Assembly (NCBI GenBank): GCA_019787685.1
Contig: JAHNUO010000027.1
Location: 186,001-250,000, forward strand
Reading direction: 5' to 3'
DNA: 64,000 nt
From: Chiua virens
Taxonomy: Eukaryota > Basidiomycota > Agaricomycetes > Boletales > Boletaceae
Under the pieces are notes generated by a model. That model saw nothing but the letters and a program-made list of their open reading frames with translations, did no database searches and was not told where the DNA came from. Position numbers and translations under genes: made by a program. Positions 1 to 51,589 of the stretch are shown one piece after another (position 1 is the stretch's first letter; each line of letters opens with the position of its first letter).

Positions 1-565
1 AGCTTCCTGAAAGAGTGCCAACGTTTAGAAGGCATTAATGGCGGTACGTGTCTTAACGCATGTTAGACGCATCTGTCAGTCAGATTGACCTGCCGATTAG
101 TGGGCCTTGTACGCAAGGTGTTGAAAGACTTCGCCTTTTCAGACGGTACGGTTGTACCGAAAGGGGCAACGGTCGGCGCGGCCAATTGGTGTATACACCG
201 CGACGAAGCGTTCTATAAGAACCCGTTCGCTTTTGAACCGTTCCGTTTTGCCGACTTGCGTGAGGAGGATGGTGAGAGTGTGAGACACCAGTTTGTCTCT
301 GCTTCCCCGGAATATTTACCGTTCGGACTCGGTCGACATGCGTGGTACGTTCTTTGTCTCAAACGGCGAGGAGAAATACTGAGGGCTTGCTAGCCCGGGA
401 CGGTTCTTTGCCGCCAACGAGATGAAATCCATGTTGGCACATCTTGTGGTGACGTATGATATCAAATTTGAAGACGGAACGACGCGCCCGCCGACGATAC
501 AGTTCGGGACGGTGCCAGTACCTAGTCCGACCGCTAAGATGATGATCAGAAAGAGGGTCCACTAA
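1..565 (+). CDS. Cytochrome P450, C-terminal part (5' end outside window)
   Basis: This is the end of a haem-thiolate monooxygenase of a fungal P450 family. Visible parts are the K-helix ExxR (FLKECQR, bases 4-24), the PERF-type region (FEPFRF) and the haem loop FGLGRHACPGRFFA. Exons are 1-43, 101-344 and 394-565, and the stop is at 563-565. The last intron splits the haem-ligand Cys codon (TG|C), so an unspliced reading appears to end in GRHAW. The reading frame is open throughout. It is closely similar to the next P450 downstream (start 1318), including the RRRV/RKRV tail, which suggests a recent tandem duplicate. N-terminal completeness cannot be judged here. Confidence 0.9.
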
Positions 566-40933: not shown

Positions 40934-43900
40934 TCACTTGGTGATGTTTGTAGCTAACATGATTTCAAAAGTTGTTCACAAAGACCAAAACAGTGGTGGA
41001 TGACTTACAAATAAGATTCTTAGAGATCAGATCCAAAAGGAGTTCTATCATTTTCTCTCCATCCTCAAAGTCATATTGAGGAATAAGCTCAGAGACTGCT
41101 GTCTTGACTTTGTGCATTGTTTCAGATGATTCATAAAGCTGAGTTGCTATCATGATTGGGTCTTGAACACCTTGCTGGTGTAAAAAGAAAGAATGTTCCA
41201 GGATAATGGCAATGCCTACAAATGTTAGTGAAGATAGTTACTGAATTTCACATTCAGAAAACTGACCAATGCCTAAATGAAGTGCTGTGTGCCATGCAGT
41301 ACCATCTTCTAAAGGAGACTAAATTATGGAATAAAACACTAGGCAGACTGGCACTATGAAATCACTGTACTCACAATGAATGTGCATTTTAAGGCTGGTG
41401 CACTTTCAACAGGAATAGAGGGCTAAGGATATTGTAAATGGATTGAAAAGAATAAAATTAGAAGGATAAAATGGATCAACCTACACTTGAAGCCTGCATT
41501 ATCTATGAAGTTGATGTCATTATTTGTACTGCAAAATCTAACAGAGTACAAACTGCCTATAAAGAATAAATCAAATGAAGTAAAGATTAAATTTACTCAT
41601 ACCTGCTATGAATTGAAATAAATAAGAGTCAAAATATTTGACAATTAAAAGGCATGTAAATGCTCACATCCTATAGAATGTTAAAATAATAAACAGGGTT
41701 AAATATAGTAGAATACATACAAGCTGTGATAGACATCATAAAGGAAGTTATGGCAAGTAGTATAGATCAGTAGCACATTTAAAATCAGAGCACTTACTCC
41801 CTATGAATGGCAGAACAGGGGCAAGGACAGAGAGGCATGAATCAGCATCCTTCTGGAAGTCCATTCATAATCAGAGCACTTACTTCCTATGAATGGTAGA
41901 ACAGGGGTAAGGACAGAGGGGCATGGATCAGCATTTTCTGGAAGCCCATTCACAATCAGAGCACCTACAAACTATGAATGGCAAGATAGGGGCAAGGACA
42001 GAGGGGCATGGATTAGCATCCTTCTGGAAGCCTATCCACAATCAGAGCACTTACATACTGTGGATGGCAGGACAGAAGCAAGGACAGAGGGGCATGGATC
42101 AGCATCTTTCTGGAAGCCCATTCATAATCAGAGCACTTACTTCCTATGAATGGCAGGACAGGGGTATGGACAGAGGGGCATGGATCAACATCCTTCTGGA
42201 AGCCCATTCACAATCAGAGCACTTACATACTATGAATGGCAGAACAGGGGCATGGACAGAGGGGCATGGATCAGCATCCTTCTGGAGGCCCATCCACAAT
42301 CAGAGCACTTACTTGCTATGAATGGCAGGACAGGGGCAAGGACAGAGGGACATGGATCAGCATCTTTCTGAAAGCCCATCCACAATCAGAGCACTTACAG
42401 TCTATGAATGACAGGACAGGGGCAAGGACAAATGGGCATGGATCAGCATCCTTCTGGAAGCCCATTCATAATCAGAGCACTTACTTCCTATGAATGGCAG
42501 AATAGGGGCAAGGACAGAGGGGCATGGATCAGCGTCCTTCTGGAAGCCCATTGACAATCAGAGCACTTACAGTCTATGAATGGCAGGGCAGGGGCATGGA
42601 CAGAGGGGCATGGATCAGCATCCTTCTGGAAGCCCATTCATAATGAGAGCACTTACAGCCTATGAATGGCAGAACAGGGGCATGGACAGAGGGGCATGGA
42701 TCAGCATCCTTCTAGAAGCCCATTCACAATCAGAGCACTTACAGCCTATGAATGGCAGGACAGGGCAAGGACAAGGGGCATGGATAAGCATTCTTCTGGA
42801 AGCCCATCCACAATCAGAGCACTTACATACTATGAATGGCAGGACAGAAGCAAGGACAGAGGGGCATGGATCAGCATCCTTCTGGAAGCCCATTCATAAT
42901 CAGAGCACTTACTTCCTGTGAATGGCAGGACAGGGGCAAGGACAGAGGAGCATGGATTAGCATCCTTCTAAAAGTCACAATCAGAGCACTTACATACTAT
43001 GAATGGCAGGACAGGGGCATGGACAGAGGGGCATGGATCAGCATCCTTCTGGAAACCCATCCACAATCAGAGCACTTACAGTCTATGAATGGCAAGGCAT
43101 TGGCAAGAACAGAGGGGCATGGATCAGCATCCTTCTGGAAGCCCATTCACAATCAGAGCACTTACATACTATGAATGGCAGGACAGGGGCAAAGACACAG
43201 GTGCATGGATTAGCATCCTTCTGGAAGCCCATTCACAATCAGAGCACTTACAGCCTATGAATGGCAGAACAGGGGCAAAGACACAGGGGCATAAATCAGC
43301 ATCCTTCTGGAAGCCCATTCATAATCAGAGCACTTACATACTATGAATGGCAGAACAGGGGCAAGGACAGAGGGGCATGGATCAGCATCCTTCTGGAAGC
43401 CCATTCACAATCAGAGCACTTACATACTATGAATGGCAGGACAGAGGCAAGGACAGAGGGGCATGGATCAGTATCCTTCTGGAGGCCCATTCACAATCAG
43501 AGCACTTACAAACTATGAATGGCAGAATAGGGGCAAGGACAGAGGGGCATGGATCAGCATTTTCTGGAAGCCCATTCACAATCAGAGCACTTACAGCCTA
43601 TGAATGACAGGACAGGGGCAAGGACAAAGGGGCATGGATCAGCATCCTTCTGGAGGCCCATTCACAATCAGAGCACTTACTTCCTATGAATGGCAGAACA
43701 GGGGCAAGGGCAGAGGGGCATGAATCAGCATCCTTCTGGAAGCCCATTCACAATCAGAGCACTTACATACTACGAATGGCAGAACAGGGGCATGGACAGA
43801 GGGGCATGGATTAGCATCCTTCTGGAAGCCCATTGACAATCAGAGCACTTACAGTCTATGAATGGCAGGGCAGGGGCATGGACAGAGGGGCATGGATCAG

Positions 43901-46238
43901 CATCCTTCTGGAAGCCCATTCACAATCAGAGCACCTACTTCCTATGGATGACAGGACAGGGGCAAGGACAAAGGGGCATGGATCAGCATTTCTGGAAGCC
44001 TATTCATAATCAGAGCACTTACTTCCTATGAATGGCAAGACAAAGGCAAGGACAGAGAGGCATGGATCAGCATCCTTCTGAAAGCCCATTCACAATCAGA
44101 GCACCTACTTCCTATGAATGGCAGGACAGGGGTAAGGACAGAGGGGCATGGATCAGCATCCTTCTGGAAATCCATCCACAATCAGAGCATTTACAGTCTA
44201 TGAATGGCAGGACAGGGGCATGGACAGAGGGGCATGGATCAGCATCCTTCTGGAAGCCCATCCACAATCAGAGCACTTACTTCCTATGAATGGCAGGACA
44301 GGGGCAAGGACAGAGGGGCATGGATCAGCATCCTTCTGGAAGCCCATTGAAAATCAGAGCACTTACATACTATGAATGGCAGGACAGAGGCAAGGACAGA
44401 GGGGCATGGATTAGCATCCTTCTGGAAGTCCACTCACAATCAGAGCACCTACAAACTATGAATGGCAGAACAGGGGCATGGACAGAGGGGCATAAATCAG
44501 CATCCTTCTGGAAACCCATCCACAATCAGAGCACTTACAGTCTATGAATGGCAGGACAGGGGCAAGGACAGAGGAGCATGGATCAGCATCCTTCTGGAAC
44601 CCCATTCACAATCAGAGCACTTACAACCTATAAATGGCAGGACAGGGGCAAGATTAGAGGAGTATGGATCACCATACTCATGTTGGGAACTCATTTACAA
44701 TCACAAGAATGCCTTACCTTTCATGAATTGGACAAGAATTTCTTTCACTGTAGATCTCATTTGCACTGCATAGAAATTCACCCACCTCAGTATGTGGAAA
44801 CCATGATCCAATTACTTCCACCATTATCTTCTGGGCAGTGTCTGTCAATGGTTGCTTGTTCTTATGTATACCCTTAATGACATGTATCAGGAACCTGAAA
44901 AATGTTTTAATACATATACTCCATAGTCCATAAACTCCATATCACTTACATCCTAAAAGCATACTCAATGCAAAGCAACATGTTTGTGTGTTGTGTAGTC
45001 ACAAGTAGCATCTGCAATGCTTCTTCATTCAAGGCCCCCACAGTCCTTTTCAAGAGAAGTCTACACCCCTCATTGGACTTGTGCAGTTCTATGTACATTT
45101 AAAATCAGTTTGACCATCAGAGACATGTATATGAACATACCTCTCAACTCCACATATGCATTTGGTGGATACATCATCTTCTGTACCCTCTCCCATGTGG
45201 GATTCCCTTTCAGCATTCTCTCAGCATTCTGCCTTCCAATTACAATCCTTCTCGCTTGGGGAAGGTTTTGTTCCTCAGGTGTCAAGGCTGCCATGCCTTG
45301 TATCAGAAGTGCATCACATTTTGTGAATACAAGTACCACAGGCACTGCAAATAGTCAGAGAAAAAAGAAATCATACATACATAAGGAGAGCTTACCACTC
45401 CCTGTGTCACATTCGTTGAAAAACTTTTCCTCGGCAGCCAAGACAGCCCGGTGGTACTGGTCCATTGGAATACAGTACCTATTCAATCACACGTCAGTGT
45501 CAGTGTCACGTAAATGCTGCTATTTCTCATCACCAGATGGCATGGATTCGCTTCTTGAGGTGTGTTGTCTTTGCACGCTCTGAAACAAACTCCTTCATCT
45601 GTTCAAATTCTCCTATGCTACCAGCTTCGAAGCCCTGCGAGTCGTGAAAGATAAAATTTGGGTTGCTTCGAAAGACCAATTCGTTCTTGATATTATGCAT
45701 TCCGCGCTTGAGACAGGTTAGCAAAATGTTAAGGCCTTCACGGTAACCAGTTAACTCACGTCCTGGGATTCTTGGATCTGTGCTAGATCGACCTGCTCGC
45801 AGACCATCAGTGCGCCCGCATCATCACAGACATTTCATTTAAGCATACCTCATTCCCATCTCCGTCACAGATCACTGGATCTTCCGTAGAGTTGCAGATT
45901 TGCTTCAGTATCGTAGTCTTCCCGGCGTTAGCCCGGCCTATGATAAGGATTCTGAAGCGCCCGAATTTCTCTCTGATACCGTCCATCTCCATAATAGGTT
46001 CCGCGGATGATTCTTCAGGAAATTCGGCGGAAGGTCCTGCGAGTGGTTCTGCGAGTGGCTCTGTGAGAGGCTCTGCGGGTGGCTCTGTGAGAGGTTCCGC
46101 AGGTGGCGCAGCGAGAGATTCTGTGGACGGTTCCGCAAGAGGTTCCGTGGGTGGCTCTGCGAGAGATTCTGCGGAAGGTCTCGTGGGAGCCTTGGAGCGA
46201 AAGAACGGGAAACGAGCGCGAGCTATAAACCTTTTCAT
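40934..46238 (-). CDS. P-loop GTPase-family protein with an array of single-codon exons
   Basis: My exon model joins about 50 exons into 529 codons with phase kept throughout. Seven ordinary exons come first: 46238-45849, 45792-45760, 45706-45534, 45478-45396, 45344-45141, 45088-44950 and 44894-44786. Next come 34 exons of 3 nt within the 86-bp array, four more 3-nt exons at 41721, 41668, 41603 and 41554, then 41502-41485, 41422-41375, 41318-41267, 41215-41009 and 40953-40934. The N-terminus (residues 20-75) is a Pro/Glu repeat. The G domain has G1 GRANAGKT (101-108), G3 DSQG (163-166) and G4 TKCD (234-237). It resembles the fungal family with HAIWYCIP and a helical C-terminus (ALHLGIGIAIILEHSFF). 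The G domain is secure. The array splicing is inferred from sequence only. Confidence 0.8.
41554..41723 (-). other. Four single-codon exons between unrelated introns
   Basis: Just 3' of the array on the gene strand, four further triplets each sit between an AG and a GT. They are CTT (41721-41723; CACAG|CTT|GTATGT), GAT (41668-41670; CTATAG|GAT|GTGAGC), CAG (41603-41605; TCATAG|CAG|GTATGAG) and GCA (41554-41556; TTATAG|GCA|GTTTGT). The introns between them are about 45-75 nt, AT-rich and unlike one another or the array. They join in frame with the exon at 41485-41502, giving GLDQAIMQASS with the last array codon. Confidence 0.65.
41798..44715 (-). repeat. 86-bp tandem array: 34 units of intron plus one codon
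   Basis: Units are 86 bp, with a few of 85, 84 or 81 bp caused by deletions that never touch the junctions. On the gene (minus) strand each reads triplet, GTAAGTGCTCTGATTGTG..., TGCTGATCC, pyrimidine tract, CCATTCATAG. The intron part is normally 83 nt. Plus-strand start positions and gene-strand triplets in gene order: 44625 GTT, 44539 ACT, 44453 TTT, 44367 TAT, 44281 GAA, 44195 ACT, 44109 GAA, 44023 GAA, 43939 GAA, 43853 ACT, 43767 TAT, 43681 GAA, 43595 GCT, 43510 TTT, 43424 TAT, 43338 TAT, 43252 GCT, 43166 TAT, 43080 ACT, 42994 TAT, 42913 GAA, 42827 TAT, 42743 GCT, 42657 GCT, 42571 ACT, 42485 GAA, 42399 ACT, 42313 CAA, 42227 TAT, 42141 GAA, 42055 TAT, 41969 TTT, 41884 GAA, 41798 GGA. Confidence 0.95.
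46015..46180 (-). repeat. Short in-frame Pro/Glu coding repeat in GTPase exon 1
   Basis: A degenerate tandem repeat of 12-24 bp with core (G/C)CAGA(A/G)CC(A/T)CTC on the gene strand encodes repeats of the form EPLAEPP/TEPLTEP. It lies at residues about 24-70, before the G domain, and is probably disordered. The opposite strand carries an open Gly/Ser-rich reading that is only its shadow. Confidence 0.8.
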
Positions 46239-46429: not shown

Positions 46430-49350
46430 ACATCCACCACTTCATCTTCCCTCTCGAGACCCGTACCGGTGATCGACCACCTTGACCCGTGACACCTTGA
46501 CATATCCACACTCAATGAGTATCAGATACCACCGCACCCGCTCCTCGCCTCTCAGTAACACTAACGGCAGCCGTCCGCTCCACACTTCAGCCACTACGAA
46601 CCCGTCCAATGACTGTAGATCCATCAACACACTAGTCTCGATCACCGCCGACTGACTCGCGTCCTGGTTCCGTCATCGGAGTGCGATGACCGTGTGTCGG
46701 CGAGAGGTCCGTGCCGTCTCCGGGACCAATAGGACCGTTGGGACAGTGATGGTCCGGCCAGTGGCTTTCAACGTGGATGAACGATAGGTCGTGTATGAGG
46801 AATAGTCATAGTAACTTGTGCATCTGAGTGGTTAGCAGGCAGGGGTCACGGCTCGCTCTGTTACCGAGATAAGTTTGATCATCAATTCCAAAGCCTTGTT
46901 CGTCCTCGGGAAACAGCACGTATTGTGAGTTAGCTGTCACAAATGCGCATCAGCACCAACCTCGTTCCGCAAACGAGGAAGAGACCTACCAGAGGATGGG
47001 TACTCCTGTCACACTGTTCTACCAAATCAGCAACCTCGCGTATCTAAACTTCAACACGTCTTTGATCATACCCTTGTAGTGCTCATACGCTCGCGGCGGT
47101 GTCGACGTGCGTATGTGCTCGAAAGGCGAGAATACACCAATGCCATAATACCTCGCAAGCATCCCGGATTCGGGGTTACCAAGGAAGATTGAGAAGCGTG
47201 TTAAAAATGCCAGCTGGGACATTCACCTGCAAACGCCACTCCAGCGAACCCATTTGAAAGAACCATCTCCACTCTTCCTGCCACGTGCCAAGGTTGTCAC
47301 CAGTCCACATTGCCGCGAAATATTGGATATCGGCATAATAGGCACGCGTGAATACAAGGGGAGTTTGGGAGAGTCCGAATGGTGATAGACGACGTAGGTT
47401 TGATTGGCCTGATGAAGACGAGCGCAGCAGTGAGTAAAATCCAGAAGACCGATGTGGACACTTACATGGGGCGTGTCATTGATGTTTTGCACATCTCGGT
47501 GCTCCCCACTGACTCCACCCTGGTTATCGAGATCTCGGGACCGTTGATCACCGAAGGCTCCAGTGAAAGACCTTAAAAATCGAGCTCCAAATCGGAAAGA
47601 AACAGCTAGAAAGGCGACAAATCACATTCGTGTTGTTCCAGATACACACGTTCTCCGAACTCTGCGTCCATGCTCAAGGGCCATCGGTACTCTTGGTCTT
47701 CGATAATTTAATCCACGAATCCCAGTTGTTTGGGTTGAAGAAGTCGATCCATGAGGAATATCCGGGCCAACCTTATCTAAGACACGCGTATCGGTTGTCA
47801 CGACGAGTCAGAGCGAAAGCACCACTGACCCCGTATTCACCTTCACCCGACTCGGAATTCGCAAGCACGCCGATATCAGACCCAATCAGGATAGTCGGAC
47901 TCGCCTTCGAGATGGGGTTTGATGATAATGATTGTCTGTGTGTCTACTTATTGAGACCCATCAACACCCCGATCACTAAAACGCACCTTTCGTTTCTTGC
48001 CCTTGACGTCTGCAACCATCTCGACCGAATCAGGGAACACCTTCTCGTCTCACATAGAGTACTGTGTCCGCCGGCATACTCGATATCGAACCAAGACGTC
48101 CATATTCGCTCCATCGAGCCGCTTCAAGACACCAGCGACATTGGTTATACGTGATAGAGGACAACTGGGAGGTATGGGTAAGGCCCGCATAGAGAAAAGA
48201 CGAAGACAGGGTTAGGACCAGAGGAATGAACACGTCAAGAATGTCAGATGCATCGATCCCGTGCGCCTTCGTGTCGTTTCGCTTTCCGATCTTGATCTAT
48301 ATATGTTGCCAATCACTGGCATTGAACACGGCGACGGGAGAATCTCCGAGGTATTTGAGCCGTCAGAGTTCAAGTTGTGCAGTTGATAAGGGTCCGAATA
48401 AGCAACGTTAGGACTAGTCGTAGAGGGAATGGACATGTTGGCATGTAGTGTACTCGGGAATGCCGTAGACATGGATATGAGGGTTGCCAGGAAGGGTAAT
48501 GTCGAGCGAGGGATTCAGAACCTAGAAGCGACCGCGTCAGTCGTGATGAGAGACTTAAAATGTGGTACGGTGACCTACCCTTGAGCTTCGGAGTATCCGA
48601 GTGGACTGCTTGGATGAGTGAAACTGCTAATCTGACTGCGAGTTCGAGGCTGGAGGAACGACTCGGTTTTTCGACTTGCAGAGGAGAACTGAGGTGGTCT
48701 GATTGGGATCTGTCGACCGCTCAAAGTGCCATTCATGTGCGATGTGATCGGTAACACGTACCTTTGTAGTTGACCATTTGCTCACCTCTTCCAACTTCAC
48801 GTTCTTCCGCCCGTTGGGGTAGTGGTTCAGAGTCAAGCGCCTTCGTTTTCGTGCCGGATGATGTGAGAGGTTTCATTGCTTTCTTGATGCCCAGGGAAGC
48901 AGAGGAAGGCGCGAGTGTATAAGCCATACGCCTTCCCATCGCCTCATGATGTCACCACATTCCATACTGACGATGACGCACTTGCAGTTCGAGGACATTT
49001 CTTTCCCTCTGTTCTCTCCCGTAATCATACGCTCATCCACGTTCCGTTTCTGTGTGAGGGCTTCTTAGTTTCCCCCGTTCCCCAACAAGGTTCCAGAGTG
49101 GTGCAAAAGGCCGTCCAACTTGAACGTGCTCGTGCCTGAAAAGACATCAGACCATCAATGGGACGACATAGGCACATACCTCCTTCCGTCGGGACAGAAG
49201 GTGACGGACATAGGACGCAGGGGTGAACAGTGTTCTGGACGAGGTAACCCTCGAAGTATGGTATGGTGCACAAAGGCATCGACACGGAAAAGTGAGCGAC
49301 ATCACCGGTAAAATGTACACTGACATCAAGCTCAGCCACCATACAACCTC
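46430..49350 (-). pseudogene. Glucosidase II alpha subunit (GH31) pseudogene
   Basis: Scattered blocks of the ER enzyme that trims glucose from N-glycans appear in the right order on the minus strand. They are LNPSLDITLPG...HVYGIPE (about 48520-48440), YSDPYQLHNLN (about 48400), YNQCRW (48149-48132), GWPGYSSWIDFFNPNNW (about 47775-47725), IWNNTN (about 47650-47632), AYYADIQYFAAMWTGDN (about 47345-47295), FRAHTHVDT (about 47124-47098) and EDEQGFGIDDQTYLGN (about 46915-46868). The nucleophile motif WNDMNEP has become WNNTNVI, losing the catalytic Asp. Stops and frame changes separate the blocks (for instance TAG just before GWPG and TGA before AWTQ). The N-terminus is uncertain beyond about 48800. 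Confidence 0.85.
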
Positions 49351-49841
49351 AATCGAAGCTTCAACACGGTCTGTGTCTCTGGTCAATGATCCGATCCGAC
49401 TTTTCAAGTTCCACTAGAGGGTCAATTTAAAACCTGTGTTCGCTTCCGCGAATTCATGCCGGCACAGCGACCCGCCGGCGGATGACCCATTCCCCGCATT
49501 CAAGGTTTTGATCTGGGGTGTCATTCAGGTCTCTTCATTTCCCTAGGGAGGACGGTGATCCGTAGACTGCTCCGAGTCTGTCGAGTTGCCCTTGAAAGGA
49601 TGGGTTCTCCATGCCAACCGGTCGAATCGTCGGCAGCACAAGTGGCAAGAGTTACTTTCTGACTTTCGAGGGCTTGGACTTTCGGAAGACGAATACCCCA
49701 GCCGGATGCTTCGATTTGACGGAATCATTGACGCCCTGCATGAGAGTACGTTACTTATGTACGTATTCACCTCGGGTCGCATACATAAATGCTTGCACGT
49801 CCTTCACTCAGTCTTCCCTCATCGATCATCAGCGAGTCGAA

Positions 49842-51589
49842 ATGTACGTTCCACTCTGGTCCTCTTTTCTTCGTTTTCTTCAGCTCCCTCTCTCGCTGTC
49901 GGGTTCTGAACCAACAGTCCAACAACATATTGTCGCGACCGACGAACAACACCTAGGGCATTGTCACTGGTGCGAAGGCTCGAAAGAGCTCCTAGGCAAT
50001 CTTTCGCCGTATCATGATGCCCCCGCTTTTCGTGGGGTGACTGCCGACTTGCCCGGCGACTGCAAAGTGGATCAGGTCATCGTGGTAAGTTGTCCTGTCA
50101 GCCACTCGCTGTCCGCCAAATTGACGTTGACCTCGCACTCAGGTACATCGCCACGGCTCGCGTGGTCCCACTAACGAACAGCAATATATCCTCGGGCTTG
50201 TTGATACCCTCGACAATGCATGGGACATCATTCAAGATGCTGACCTCCCCTCATCGCTGGAATTCCTGAGAGCTGGTTACAAATACGAGCTCGTCCCTGA
50301 GGAACTCACCATCGTCGGACGCCAGCAACTATTCGATCACGGAGTCCAGTGCGTATCTCTCTCAGAATCAACAACATGCATATGCGAATGTTTCCTCACA
50401 GATTCGCCCTTCGCTATCCGGGGTTCTCGACGGATCACGTCGTGTCTACTTCAGTTCAAAGGGTCATGGACTCTGCGTACTTCTTTTCTCAAGGCCTCTT
50501 CGGCCTCGACATCGACGACGTGACCTGCTTGACGACGGACGACTTTGACGATCCGGTGTCTTGGCTTGACCCATGGAAATCCTGTCCCAAGTTACCTTAC
50601 GCCGAGGCTTACAAGGTAACTCTCCTTCATTCAGTCACGTCGAGCCATGCTGAACGCGCACGCAGACCGCTCAGGTGTGGGCAGAGGAGTATATCCCGTC
50701 CATCGTCGATAGACTCAACGACCTCATTCCCGGCATCGCGTTCTCTTCCGACGACATCCACGGCGCCTTGTACGCATGCCCGTACGATCTTGCGGCTCGC
50801 GACACGTCTCCTTGGTGCGACGCGTTCACCAAACGCGAGCTACGAAGTTTTGAGTGAGTTCAAATTGACGCTTGGCACTGGTGGGGCTTACTTTGACTCG
50901 ACGTAGATATGAACTGGATCTGTTGCTGGACGGCATCACGGGACATGCTTCCACAGGTGCTCCAAATCCAGGCCCACTTGTCGGTGCATTCTACATCAAG
51001 AAACTCATCCAACGGTAAGCGTCGGCTCAGAGGACACGCGAGAACGAGCATTCACGAGCACTCGAATATGGTAGTTTGACCGACGAAACGGAGTACGCCG
51101 AACCTCTCTACCTGGATTTCGCACATGATTTCACCATCCTGTTGGCGTTGTCGACGATGGGATTGAACAAGTCAGTGCTGGTCAGGCTTTCGGAGGAAAA
51201 GAGAAATCCCACTAACGACGTTCGCTTGCAGAGACCCCGAGCCGCTTAGCCCGACACACATGAATCCGCTCCGCAAGTTCAGGAGTTCGTATCAGGCGCC
51301 GTTTGCTGCCAACATGGTGTGGGAGAAATTCACATGCGACACGTCGTACGTGCATCTCGTTGAAGTGTCGTAGACATGCTCTCACGTTCCAACGTCTCGG
51401 AGCAGCTTCGATGGTCCCCAAGTCCGCCTCCTCCTGAACGGCGCGACGTTCCCTCTGTCCATCTGTGAGGCGTCCGAGGACGACAAGAGCTACGGCACAT
51501 GTTCGCTGGACAACTTTGTGAGTGCCAACGAGTTCAGCTTGAACGTTGCATACCACAGTGCTGTCTGGAACGCTACTTGCGAGCTTTGA
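49842..51589 (+). CDS. Secreted histidine acid phosphatase (branch 2; phytase / inositol-polyphosphate phosphatase type)
   Basis: Predicted 450 aa. Exons: 49842-50084, 50143-50348, 50402-50615, 50666-50853, 50907-51014, 51075-51170, 51232-51345 and 51406-51589. The ATG at 49842 begins a signal peptide (MYVPLWSSFLRFLQLPLSLS). The catalytic motif HRHGSRGP (start of exon 2) supplies the phospho-accepting His, and FAHDFTI (exon 6) supplies the proton-donor HD pair. Paired Cys residues (CHWC, CP, CDAF, CEASEDDKSYGTC) fit a disulfide-rich extracellular enzyme. The protein probably releases phosphate from inositol phosphates or other monoesters, though substrate is not fixed by the motifs. It lies tail to tail with the leucine aminopeptidase gene, as in the decayed copy at 36-38 kb. 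Confidence 0.92.

Follow-up and report, generated by a model that had tools for sequence, protein, structure and literature searches.

Tandem single-codon exons predicted between near-identical introns in a GTPase gene family of the bolete Chiua virens

Introner elements are families in which one intron has been inserted into many unrelated genes. Micro-exon genes (MEGs) are defined by micro-exons of varied length that form much of the gene. Aphid bicycle genes also have many microexons, and we know of no tandem array of identical introns in them. The bicycle genes are described as a rapidly evolving family that was found by its gene structure (PMC9168663). The schistosome MEGs are described with exons of 3-81 bp, many per gene, and with 10 to 20 short exons that differ in length, between introns of 100 to almost 5000 bp (PMC10526429). 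A 1-nt exon is reported in APC11 of Arabidopsis (PMC4674806) and in CYP621A of Fusarium (PMC12940212), and a 3-bp exon is reported in hth of Drosophila (PMC7392893). Finally, the HNWD family of Podospora (het-d/het-e/het-r), which belongs to the fungal NLRs, is described as having tandem repeats of high internal conservation under concerted evolution; fungal NLR repeats have variable positions under positive selection and are polymorphic in repeat number (PMC2873952, PMC4986451).

Here we describe a gene of Chiua virens in which 34 consecutive exons of one codon each are predicted. The observation is real and beyond chance, and it shows one part of a system that extends through the genome and that we could not assign to any known kind; no other tandem run of single-codon exons was found in the open-licence literature, which omits most subscription journals. 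In our view the array is likely to be a minisatellite within a GTPase gene, in which the constant part of each unit is intron-like and the variable part is one codon, and splicing is predicted to turn it into a hypervariable peptide. This peptide is predicted to sit between the GTPase domain and a conserved C-terminus, assembled one residue per exon.

The GTPase gene and its array in the window

The window (the whole 64,000-nucleotide stretch of DNA that was analysed) carries the gene on its minus strand. Its predicted features are listed in gene order with what they are based on; P0006 is a related protein from another fungus.

45849..46238, minus strand, exon 1 (predicted): repeat-rich N-terminus, then IREKFGRFRILIIGRANAGKTTIL with the P-loop; open frame, donor GAG/GTATGC
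45760..45792, minus strand, exon 2 (predicted): frame and splice sites; joined protein aligns with P0006
45534..45706, minus strand, exon 3 (predicted): joined protein aligns with P0006
45396..45478, minus strand, exon 4 (predicted): joined protein aligns with P0006
45141..45344, minus strand, exon 5 (predicted): joined protein aligns with P0006
44950..45088, minus strand, exon 6 (predicted): joined protein aligns with P0006
44786..44894, minus strand, exon 7 (predicted), the anchor exon: ends ...SWFPHTE in phase 0; matches at 50 genome places
44628..44785, minus strand, 158-nt intron between exon 7 and the array: diverged array intron in its 3' part (44717-44628)
41798..44627, minus strand, array of 34 predicted single-codon exons: introns mostly 83 nt; predicted peptide VTFYETEEETYEAFYYAYTYEYAATETQYEYFEG
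Array exon starts 1-12, minus strand: 44627, 44541, 44455, 44369, 44283, 44197, 44111, 44025, 43941, 43855, 43769, 43683
Array exon starts 13-24, minus strand: 43597, 43512, 43426, 43340, 43254, 43168, 43082, 42996, 42915, 42829, 42745, 42659
Array exon starts 25-34, minus strand: 42573, 42487, 42401, 42315, 42229, 42143, 42057, 41971, 41886, 41800
41721..41723, minus strand, single-codon exon CTT (Leu), predicted: TTT, CTT or CTG in paralogs, read by eye
41668..41670, minus strand, single-codon exon GAT (Asp), predicted: GAT chain in 11 of 18 long loci by a pattern in which GAT is fixed, and in 3 more by eye
41603..41605, minus strand, single-codon exon CAG (Gln), predicted: CAG, CAT, AAG or GAG in 10 matched paralogs, the codon being free in the pattern
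41554..41556, minus strand, single-codon exon GCA (Ala), predicted: GAG in 10/10 matched paralogs, the codon being free in the pattern
41485..41502, minus strand, 18-nt exon IMQASS, predicted: length set by the pattern; P0006 counterpart VIPSSQ
41375..41422, minus strand, 48-nt exon PSIPVESAPALKCTFI, predicted: frame and splice sites
41267..41318, minus strand, 52-nt exon SPLEDGTAWHTALHLGIG, predicted: aligns with DGWRKVLKAGIG of P0006
40965..41215, minus strand, last exon read, IAIILEHSFFLHQQG...SKNLI..., to the first in-frame stop: P0006 alignment; splicing after SKNLI possible

A pattern scan of the window finds 34 array units on the minus strand, each consisting of AG, one codon and GT in phase 0, with the first triplet at 44627-44625 and the last at 41800-41798. 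The units are mostly spaced by 86 nt, with spacings of 85 (two), 84 (two) and 81 (one). The triplets are GAA (9), TAT (9), ACT (6), GCT (4), TTT (3) and GTT, CAA and GGA (1 each), with no stops. This exact recount agrees with the original prediction in units, spacings, triplet counts and the absence of stops. Tandem Repeats Finder (TRF) places the array at 41772-44675, with a period of 86, 33.9 copies and 88% matches. The array can be ruled out as an uninterrupted coding sequence, as all three frames contain stops, and a scan of the window for Rfam families and tRNAs gave no match.

An in-frame GT directly after WFPxx[E/K/Q] ends the anchor exon in 39 of the 40 loci examined, L048 being unmatched by the pattern, and this bears out the earlier claim that phase 0 runs on from the exon ending FPHTE. 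The frame of exon 7 also stays open as far as a second donor at 44718 (...CATGAAAG/GTAAGG), use of which would put the triplets in another phase. We rejected it: class B paralogs have a frameshift in the corresponding stretch, and the in-frame donor of the 39 loci speaks against it. The one-codon exon that would precede the intron at 44717-44628 is lost in the window gene, where acceptor meets donor (AAAG/GTAAGG), and some paralogs retain it, as AG/GGT/GT in L029 and as AG/GGA/GT in L032 and L037. The AAAG/GTAAGG junction itself might be a zero-length exon.

Downstream of the array, GT-AG sites accompany each of the CTT, GAT, CAG, GCA and 18-nt exons. A pattern for this chain, which fixes GAT, the exon length of 18 nt and part of the donor letters and leaves the other codons and the introns free, matches 11 of the 18 long loci, the window included, and none of 300 shuffles of the window stretch. 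It misses the class B donor GTAAGC, and the chain was read by eye in L050, L052 and L053; L039, L049, L051 and L054 are unmatched. The introns of the chain in the 10 paralogs are 0.58-0.80 identical to those of the window, compared with 0.55 for shuffled introns.

The P-loop GxxxxGKT and the G-domain fold make the window protein a TRAFAC GTPase (MMR_HSR1-like), and the P-loop GRANAGKT is invariant among the 10 relatives compared. In Pfam, the window protein up to exon 7 gives sub-threshold rows for G-alpha and MMR_HSR1 at E up to 0.001 and no row for NACHT or NB-ARC at that limit. MMR_HSR1 is above the cut-off in the relative P0113. A search with P0006, P0113, P0116 and P0164 at E up to 0.1 also has no NACHT or NB-ARC row; its other weak rows are ABC_tran, ATPase_2 and Apolipoprotein. 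The predicted GTPase matches no chain in a PDB sequence search. A structure model of P0006 (ten sequences, mean pLDDT 73) has a G domain and a helical C-terminus, with the hypervariable part (305-308 and 310-342) unmodelled at pLDDT < 50. Its best structural matches include IRG proteins of the IIGP1/Irga6 type and BDLP, with Arf-like, septin and EngB chains scoring about equally; the matches span mainly residues 1-253, cover mainly the G domain and barely reach the C-terminal part.

Several other features lie around the gene. A coding repeat of 12/24/48 bp (SAESLAEPPTEPLAEP-like) lies within the N-terminal GTPase exon, at 45996-46175, and two Chiua proteins, P0001 and P0002, differ in it. On the far side of the GTPase start, the flank at 47600-49600 in the window recurs beside many GTPase copies at 81-91% identity, so the gene is duplicated along with this neighbouring stretch. 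An open reading frame at 47567-48154 (plus strand, 195 aa) has no Pfam match, and 50131-50906 (plus strand) holds pieces of a histidine phosphatase (branch 2) gene that are below the Pfam cut-off.

The array family in the Chiua genome

The 48.3-Mb genome (136 contigs) contains at least 1189 matches to the 83-nt intron. The exact junction pattern CATTCATAGNNNGTAAGTGCTCTGAT occurs 814 times in it, and the reversed control does not occur. A search with the anchor exon gives 56 matches (E up to 10, the weakest at 0.27), which we count as 50 places because six of the rows are second pieces of a place already counted. The number of genes would be lower than 50, since some of the places are probably alleles on separate contigs. 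Forty of the 50 places were examined as L009-L048; L001-L008 were excluded because they overlap and show a single array. An array, strong or decayed, is present in 39 of the 40, and five or more full intron bodies are present in 36; the bodies are mostly diverged in L031, L034 and L035. L039 is the only one of the 40 with an anchor exon and no array.

Spread of the intron to unrelated genes, in the manner of introner elements, was considered. Among 100 junctions listed of the 814 (contigs C1-C5), 98 lie, by eye, on the same strand as a GTPase anchor exon and about 3.2 kb or less downstream of it, which argues against such spread. The two exceptions among the 100 (C3:645379 and C3:645553) are about 9 kb from a GTPase exon.

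An intron profile was built from the body only, with the splice letters excluded, and 651 of its 759 hits are full length. The letters next to these bodies are GT at 649 of 651 donors and AG at 646 of 650 acceptors. Neighbouring introns are separated by exactly 3 nt in 583 of 587 cases, so that the exact 3-nt spacing claimed for the window gene holds across the family. Fifteen diverged loci have body columns that average 0.885 consensus; 117 of 198 bodies have a deletion relative to the model, many of these deletions being common within an array class, and 26 have an insertion (125 partial bodies of 323 were dropped). The same loci have GT in 197/198 cases, AG in 197/198 and 3-nt gaps in 136/137. 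Splice letters and 3-nt exon length are kept where intron bodies decay. L040 has two array exons of 5 and 2 nt instead of 3.

Stops were counted in 35 loci, the near-duplicates L017 and L030 having been dropped, and compared with triplets whose letters were shuffled among the units within a locus. Phase 0 has 2 stops in 553 triplets, whereas the shuffled mean is 58 and the minimum 41 in 5000 trials. When each triplet type is taken once per locus, there are 2 stops in 197, compared with a shuffled mean of 20.5 and a minimum of 9. Phase 2 has 44 stops, and phase 1 also has only 2; therefore, the reading phase rests on exon 7. The two stop triplets are TGA in L046 and TAA in L048, and another TGA is at C2:2553683 among the 100 junctions listed of the 814. 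L046 and L048 might either be pseudogenes or skip these exons.

Variation is concentrated in the triplet. In 314 standard-length units, the entropy of its three positions is 1.84, 1.91 and 1.25 bits; 72 of the 83 intron positions are under 0.4 bits and the highest is 1.22, with the values of the first ten and last two intron positions biased by the search pattern. The last letter of the triplet is A or T in 298 of these 314 units and C in one, a bias for which we have no explanation.

We propose that splicing by intron definition would proceed sequentially, unit by unit, and would include every codon. Because fungal introns are short, a 3-nt exon would need no exon recognition, and the removal of each intron would add the following codon in phase 0. 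It is possible, if rather doubtful, that the exons are real and that each transcript uses a variable subset of them, which would give many protein lengths per array. Such use of subsets is compatible with the minisatellite reading. Nearly all of the exons are 3 nt, so any subset stays in frame, and differential splicing of schistosome micro-exon genes was reportedly described by DeMarco in 2010. However, the splice sites are nearly all alike, with the donor GTAAGT in 550 of 582 counted units, and so there is no obvious cue for choosing a subset.

Turnover of codons and introns

Comparison of paralogs and probable haplotigs extends to the whole family the earlier suggestion that the array varies in length and sequence. 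C8 and C26, as well as others, are taken as haplotigs from their collinear places. For example, the upstream flanks of L018 and L021 are 99.57% identical and their codon strings diverge after three shared codons; those of L010 and L011 are 98.9% identical and the codon strings differ. Complete arrays also differ in length: L051 and L052, again with upstream flanks 99.57% identical, have 54 and 36 units, respectively, before a shared L-D end. L053 has 27 units with codons of 8 types, and its introns are letter-identical in 26/26 cases, an identity that assembly polishing could have produced by flattening them. L054, whose upstream flank is 99.86% identical to that of L053, consists of 30 units, and only one of its 29 introns carries a variant, of a single letter. 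The two arrays are partly collinear, with a codon identity of 0.62 that none of 200 shuffles equalled. In L055, 31 of 33 introns are identical and the codons are varied.

Eight pairs of arrays were compared. The three pairs with more diverged introns (pi 0.04-0.18) have codon identities of 0.88, 1.00 and 1.00, and four of the five pairs with homogeneous introns (pi 0.00-0.05) align no better than shuffles. Intron homogeneity goes with codon turnover, as a trend from eight pairs and not a law; some of the pi values are close (L045/L046, 0.062/0.042; L049/L050, 0.045/0.035).

Plain block duplication does not account for the codon strings. Among 26 arrays, the longest repeated codon block exceeds shuffles in L052 only (P 0.024), with L010 (P 0.052) and L033 (P 0.058) near the threshold. 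In 5 of 18 informative arrays, units with the same codon share intron variants at P <= 0.04 on at least one side; with two sides tested per array, one or two such arrays are expected by chance. The five are L011, L012, L018, L033 and L052, and the association is strongest in L018 (0.007 and 0.003). Of the other arrays among the 26, three have identical introns and are uninformative, and five were unscored for having too few 83-nt introns. Rare block repeats and linkage in 5 of 18 arrays are not predicted by simple duplication of units. Either much exchange would be needed, or targeted change would be favoured.

We propose the following. Identical introns would provide 83 nt of homology between any two units, both within and between arrays. 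Unequal exchange, conversion or template switching within the introns would add, drop or swap codons and leave the frame unaffected. Selection for diversity would keep the codons different as the introns are homogenised, and arrays with decayed introns would tend to be frozen. The 26 identical introns among 27 codons of 8 types could hardly come from uniform mutation and whole-unit copying, and an extra process would be needed: either selection for codon diversity combined with exchange on a very fine scale, or mutation directed at the triplet.

The second of these, in which codon diversity would come from triplet-aimed mutation and not from recombination in introns, seems to us unlikely. It would readily explain L053, and the scarcity of block repeats and the limited association of codons with introns are also in its favour. 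However, L016/L017 and L029/L030 have decayed introns and identical codons at similar flank divergence, which argues that the triplet is not hypermutable as such, and we know of no triplet-aimed mutator in fungi. Exchange within the introns is somewhat favoured, since codon turnover is linked to intron identity.

Relatives, possible role and known systems

Several relatives are represented by contigs of 1.0-2.6 kb (sources jgi and lgn) that have a single open frame through the exons. The coding region in the window spans about 5 kb with tens of introns, and so these contigs are presumably spliced. The proteins from such transcript-type contigs all come from fungi other than Chiua and are known from contigs, not from genomic arrays. 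P0006 (438 aa, from a 1529-nt contig) reads ...LWFPHSQ-ERFEVFREFVFEFAN-LDRA-VIPSSQ..., and its counterpart in the window gene is ...SWFPHTE, the array, LDQA and IMQASS.... The peptide at the joint is YHLEYHHREEEEYHHHHHYLEYEEYL in P0116 and ELRELERHNELFRNEEELNKHARARAREELREELERNNEEEKEEKE in P0164. Up to WFPNTK, P0062 and P0061, a gene model of Pisolithus tinctorius, share 353 of 354 residues; P0062 then continues into the Q/E/Y-rich DLPPYEQPQYQQQEGETREQWYERRYQEEQEQEQQHEQEYQEQQ (DLPPYEQPQYQQQEGETREQ...), whereas P0061 goes to LSLEVV instead and lacks the string. Contigs of related boletes that appear to be spliced thus carry a peptide where the joint is predicted, in many cases built from few letters. 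In 14 transcript-type segments, which we chose to take as 28 residues after the motif (15 for P0006), seven are the least complex stretch of their own protein, four are in its lowest 8%, and three (P0013, P0014 and P0063) are ordinary.

These peptides bear on another explanation, in which splicing removes the entire array as a single large intron, or skips most codons, and the triplets go unused. The annotation of P0061 joins across the site in this way. Of 10 public Chiua gene models listed, the five examined end at or before the array and contain no array peptide, and a protein search with the array and C-terminus as query gave 467 candidates, none at E <= 1. However, the avoidance of stops, the splice letters and 3-nt length kept in diverged arrays, and the peptide at the joint in transcript-type contigs speak against this explanation, which we regard as very unlikely. 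It is scarcely credible that the array is a neutral satellite resembling introns or an assembly artefact, as it recurs at tens of loci in one gene family and one phase with stops avoided and splice letters kept, even though tandem arrays are hard to assemble and polishing may flatten introns.

Returning to the spliced minisatellite, the peptide might serve in recognition, perhaps of non-self, within a GTPase whose mode of action is somewhat like that of an IRG or dynamin-like protein, and this is the step of which we are least confident. A recognition role is a guess by analogy with the recombining repeats of fungal allorecognition proteins. Tentatively, and with more doubt than confidence, we suggest that dozens of GTPase genes, each having a string of one-codon exons of its own, might have their proteins rewritten codon by codon, that the identical introns would be recombination handles absent from the message, and that the outcome would be haplotype-private peptide barcodes that could serve non-self recognition.

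If the reading of the array is correct, no exon-intron architecture known to us would be as extreme as this one, with tens of consecutive introns separated by one codon each and over a thousand intron copies in one genome. Introns would also be put to direct evolutionary use, as long identical recombination handles that add nothing to the protein. The array makes testable the passage of the spliceosome through 35 to 55 one-codon exons without loss. In addition, it points to a large hypervariable gene family in boletes, which gene models miss because 3-nt exons are hard to place.

The known systems each share some of these properties. The P0006 model counts IRG and dynamin-like GTPases (IIGP1/Irga6 and BDLP) among its best structural matches, but the match is mainly to the G domain, and Arf-like, septin and EngB chains score alike. 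Unlike introner elements, the Chiua intron family stays with one gene family at 98 of the 100 junctions listed of the 814. The MEGs resemble the Chiua array in having very short exons, many per gene, and are reported to vary their proteins by splicing. However, ordinary exons encode the Chiua GTPase, its array exons have one codon each (3 nt in 583/587) and its introns are copies of one another, whereas MEGs are not described as a tandem array of one intron in PMC10526429.

The tiny exons of APC11, CYP621A and hth indicate that exons of 1-3 nt can be joined by a spliceosome, including that of a fungus; they are single conserved exons, one per gene, whereas the window gene has 34 in a row and they are hypervariable. 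The array family shares with the fungal NLR repeats homogenised tandem units, hypervariable positions and polymorphism in repeat number. However, the fungal NLR hosts are NACHT or NB-ARC proteins and the Chiua host is a GTPase. Furthermore, the conserved part of the NLR repeat is protein (WD, ANK or TPR), whereas the conserved part of the Chiua unit is an intron, and only the variable residue is predicted to reach the protein.
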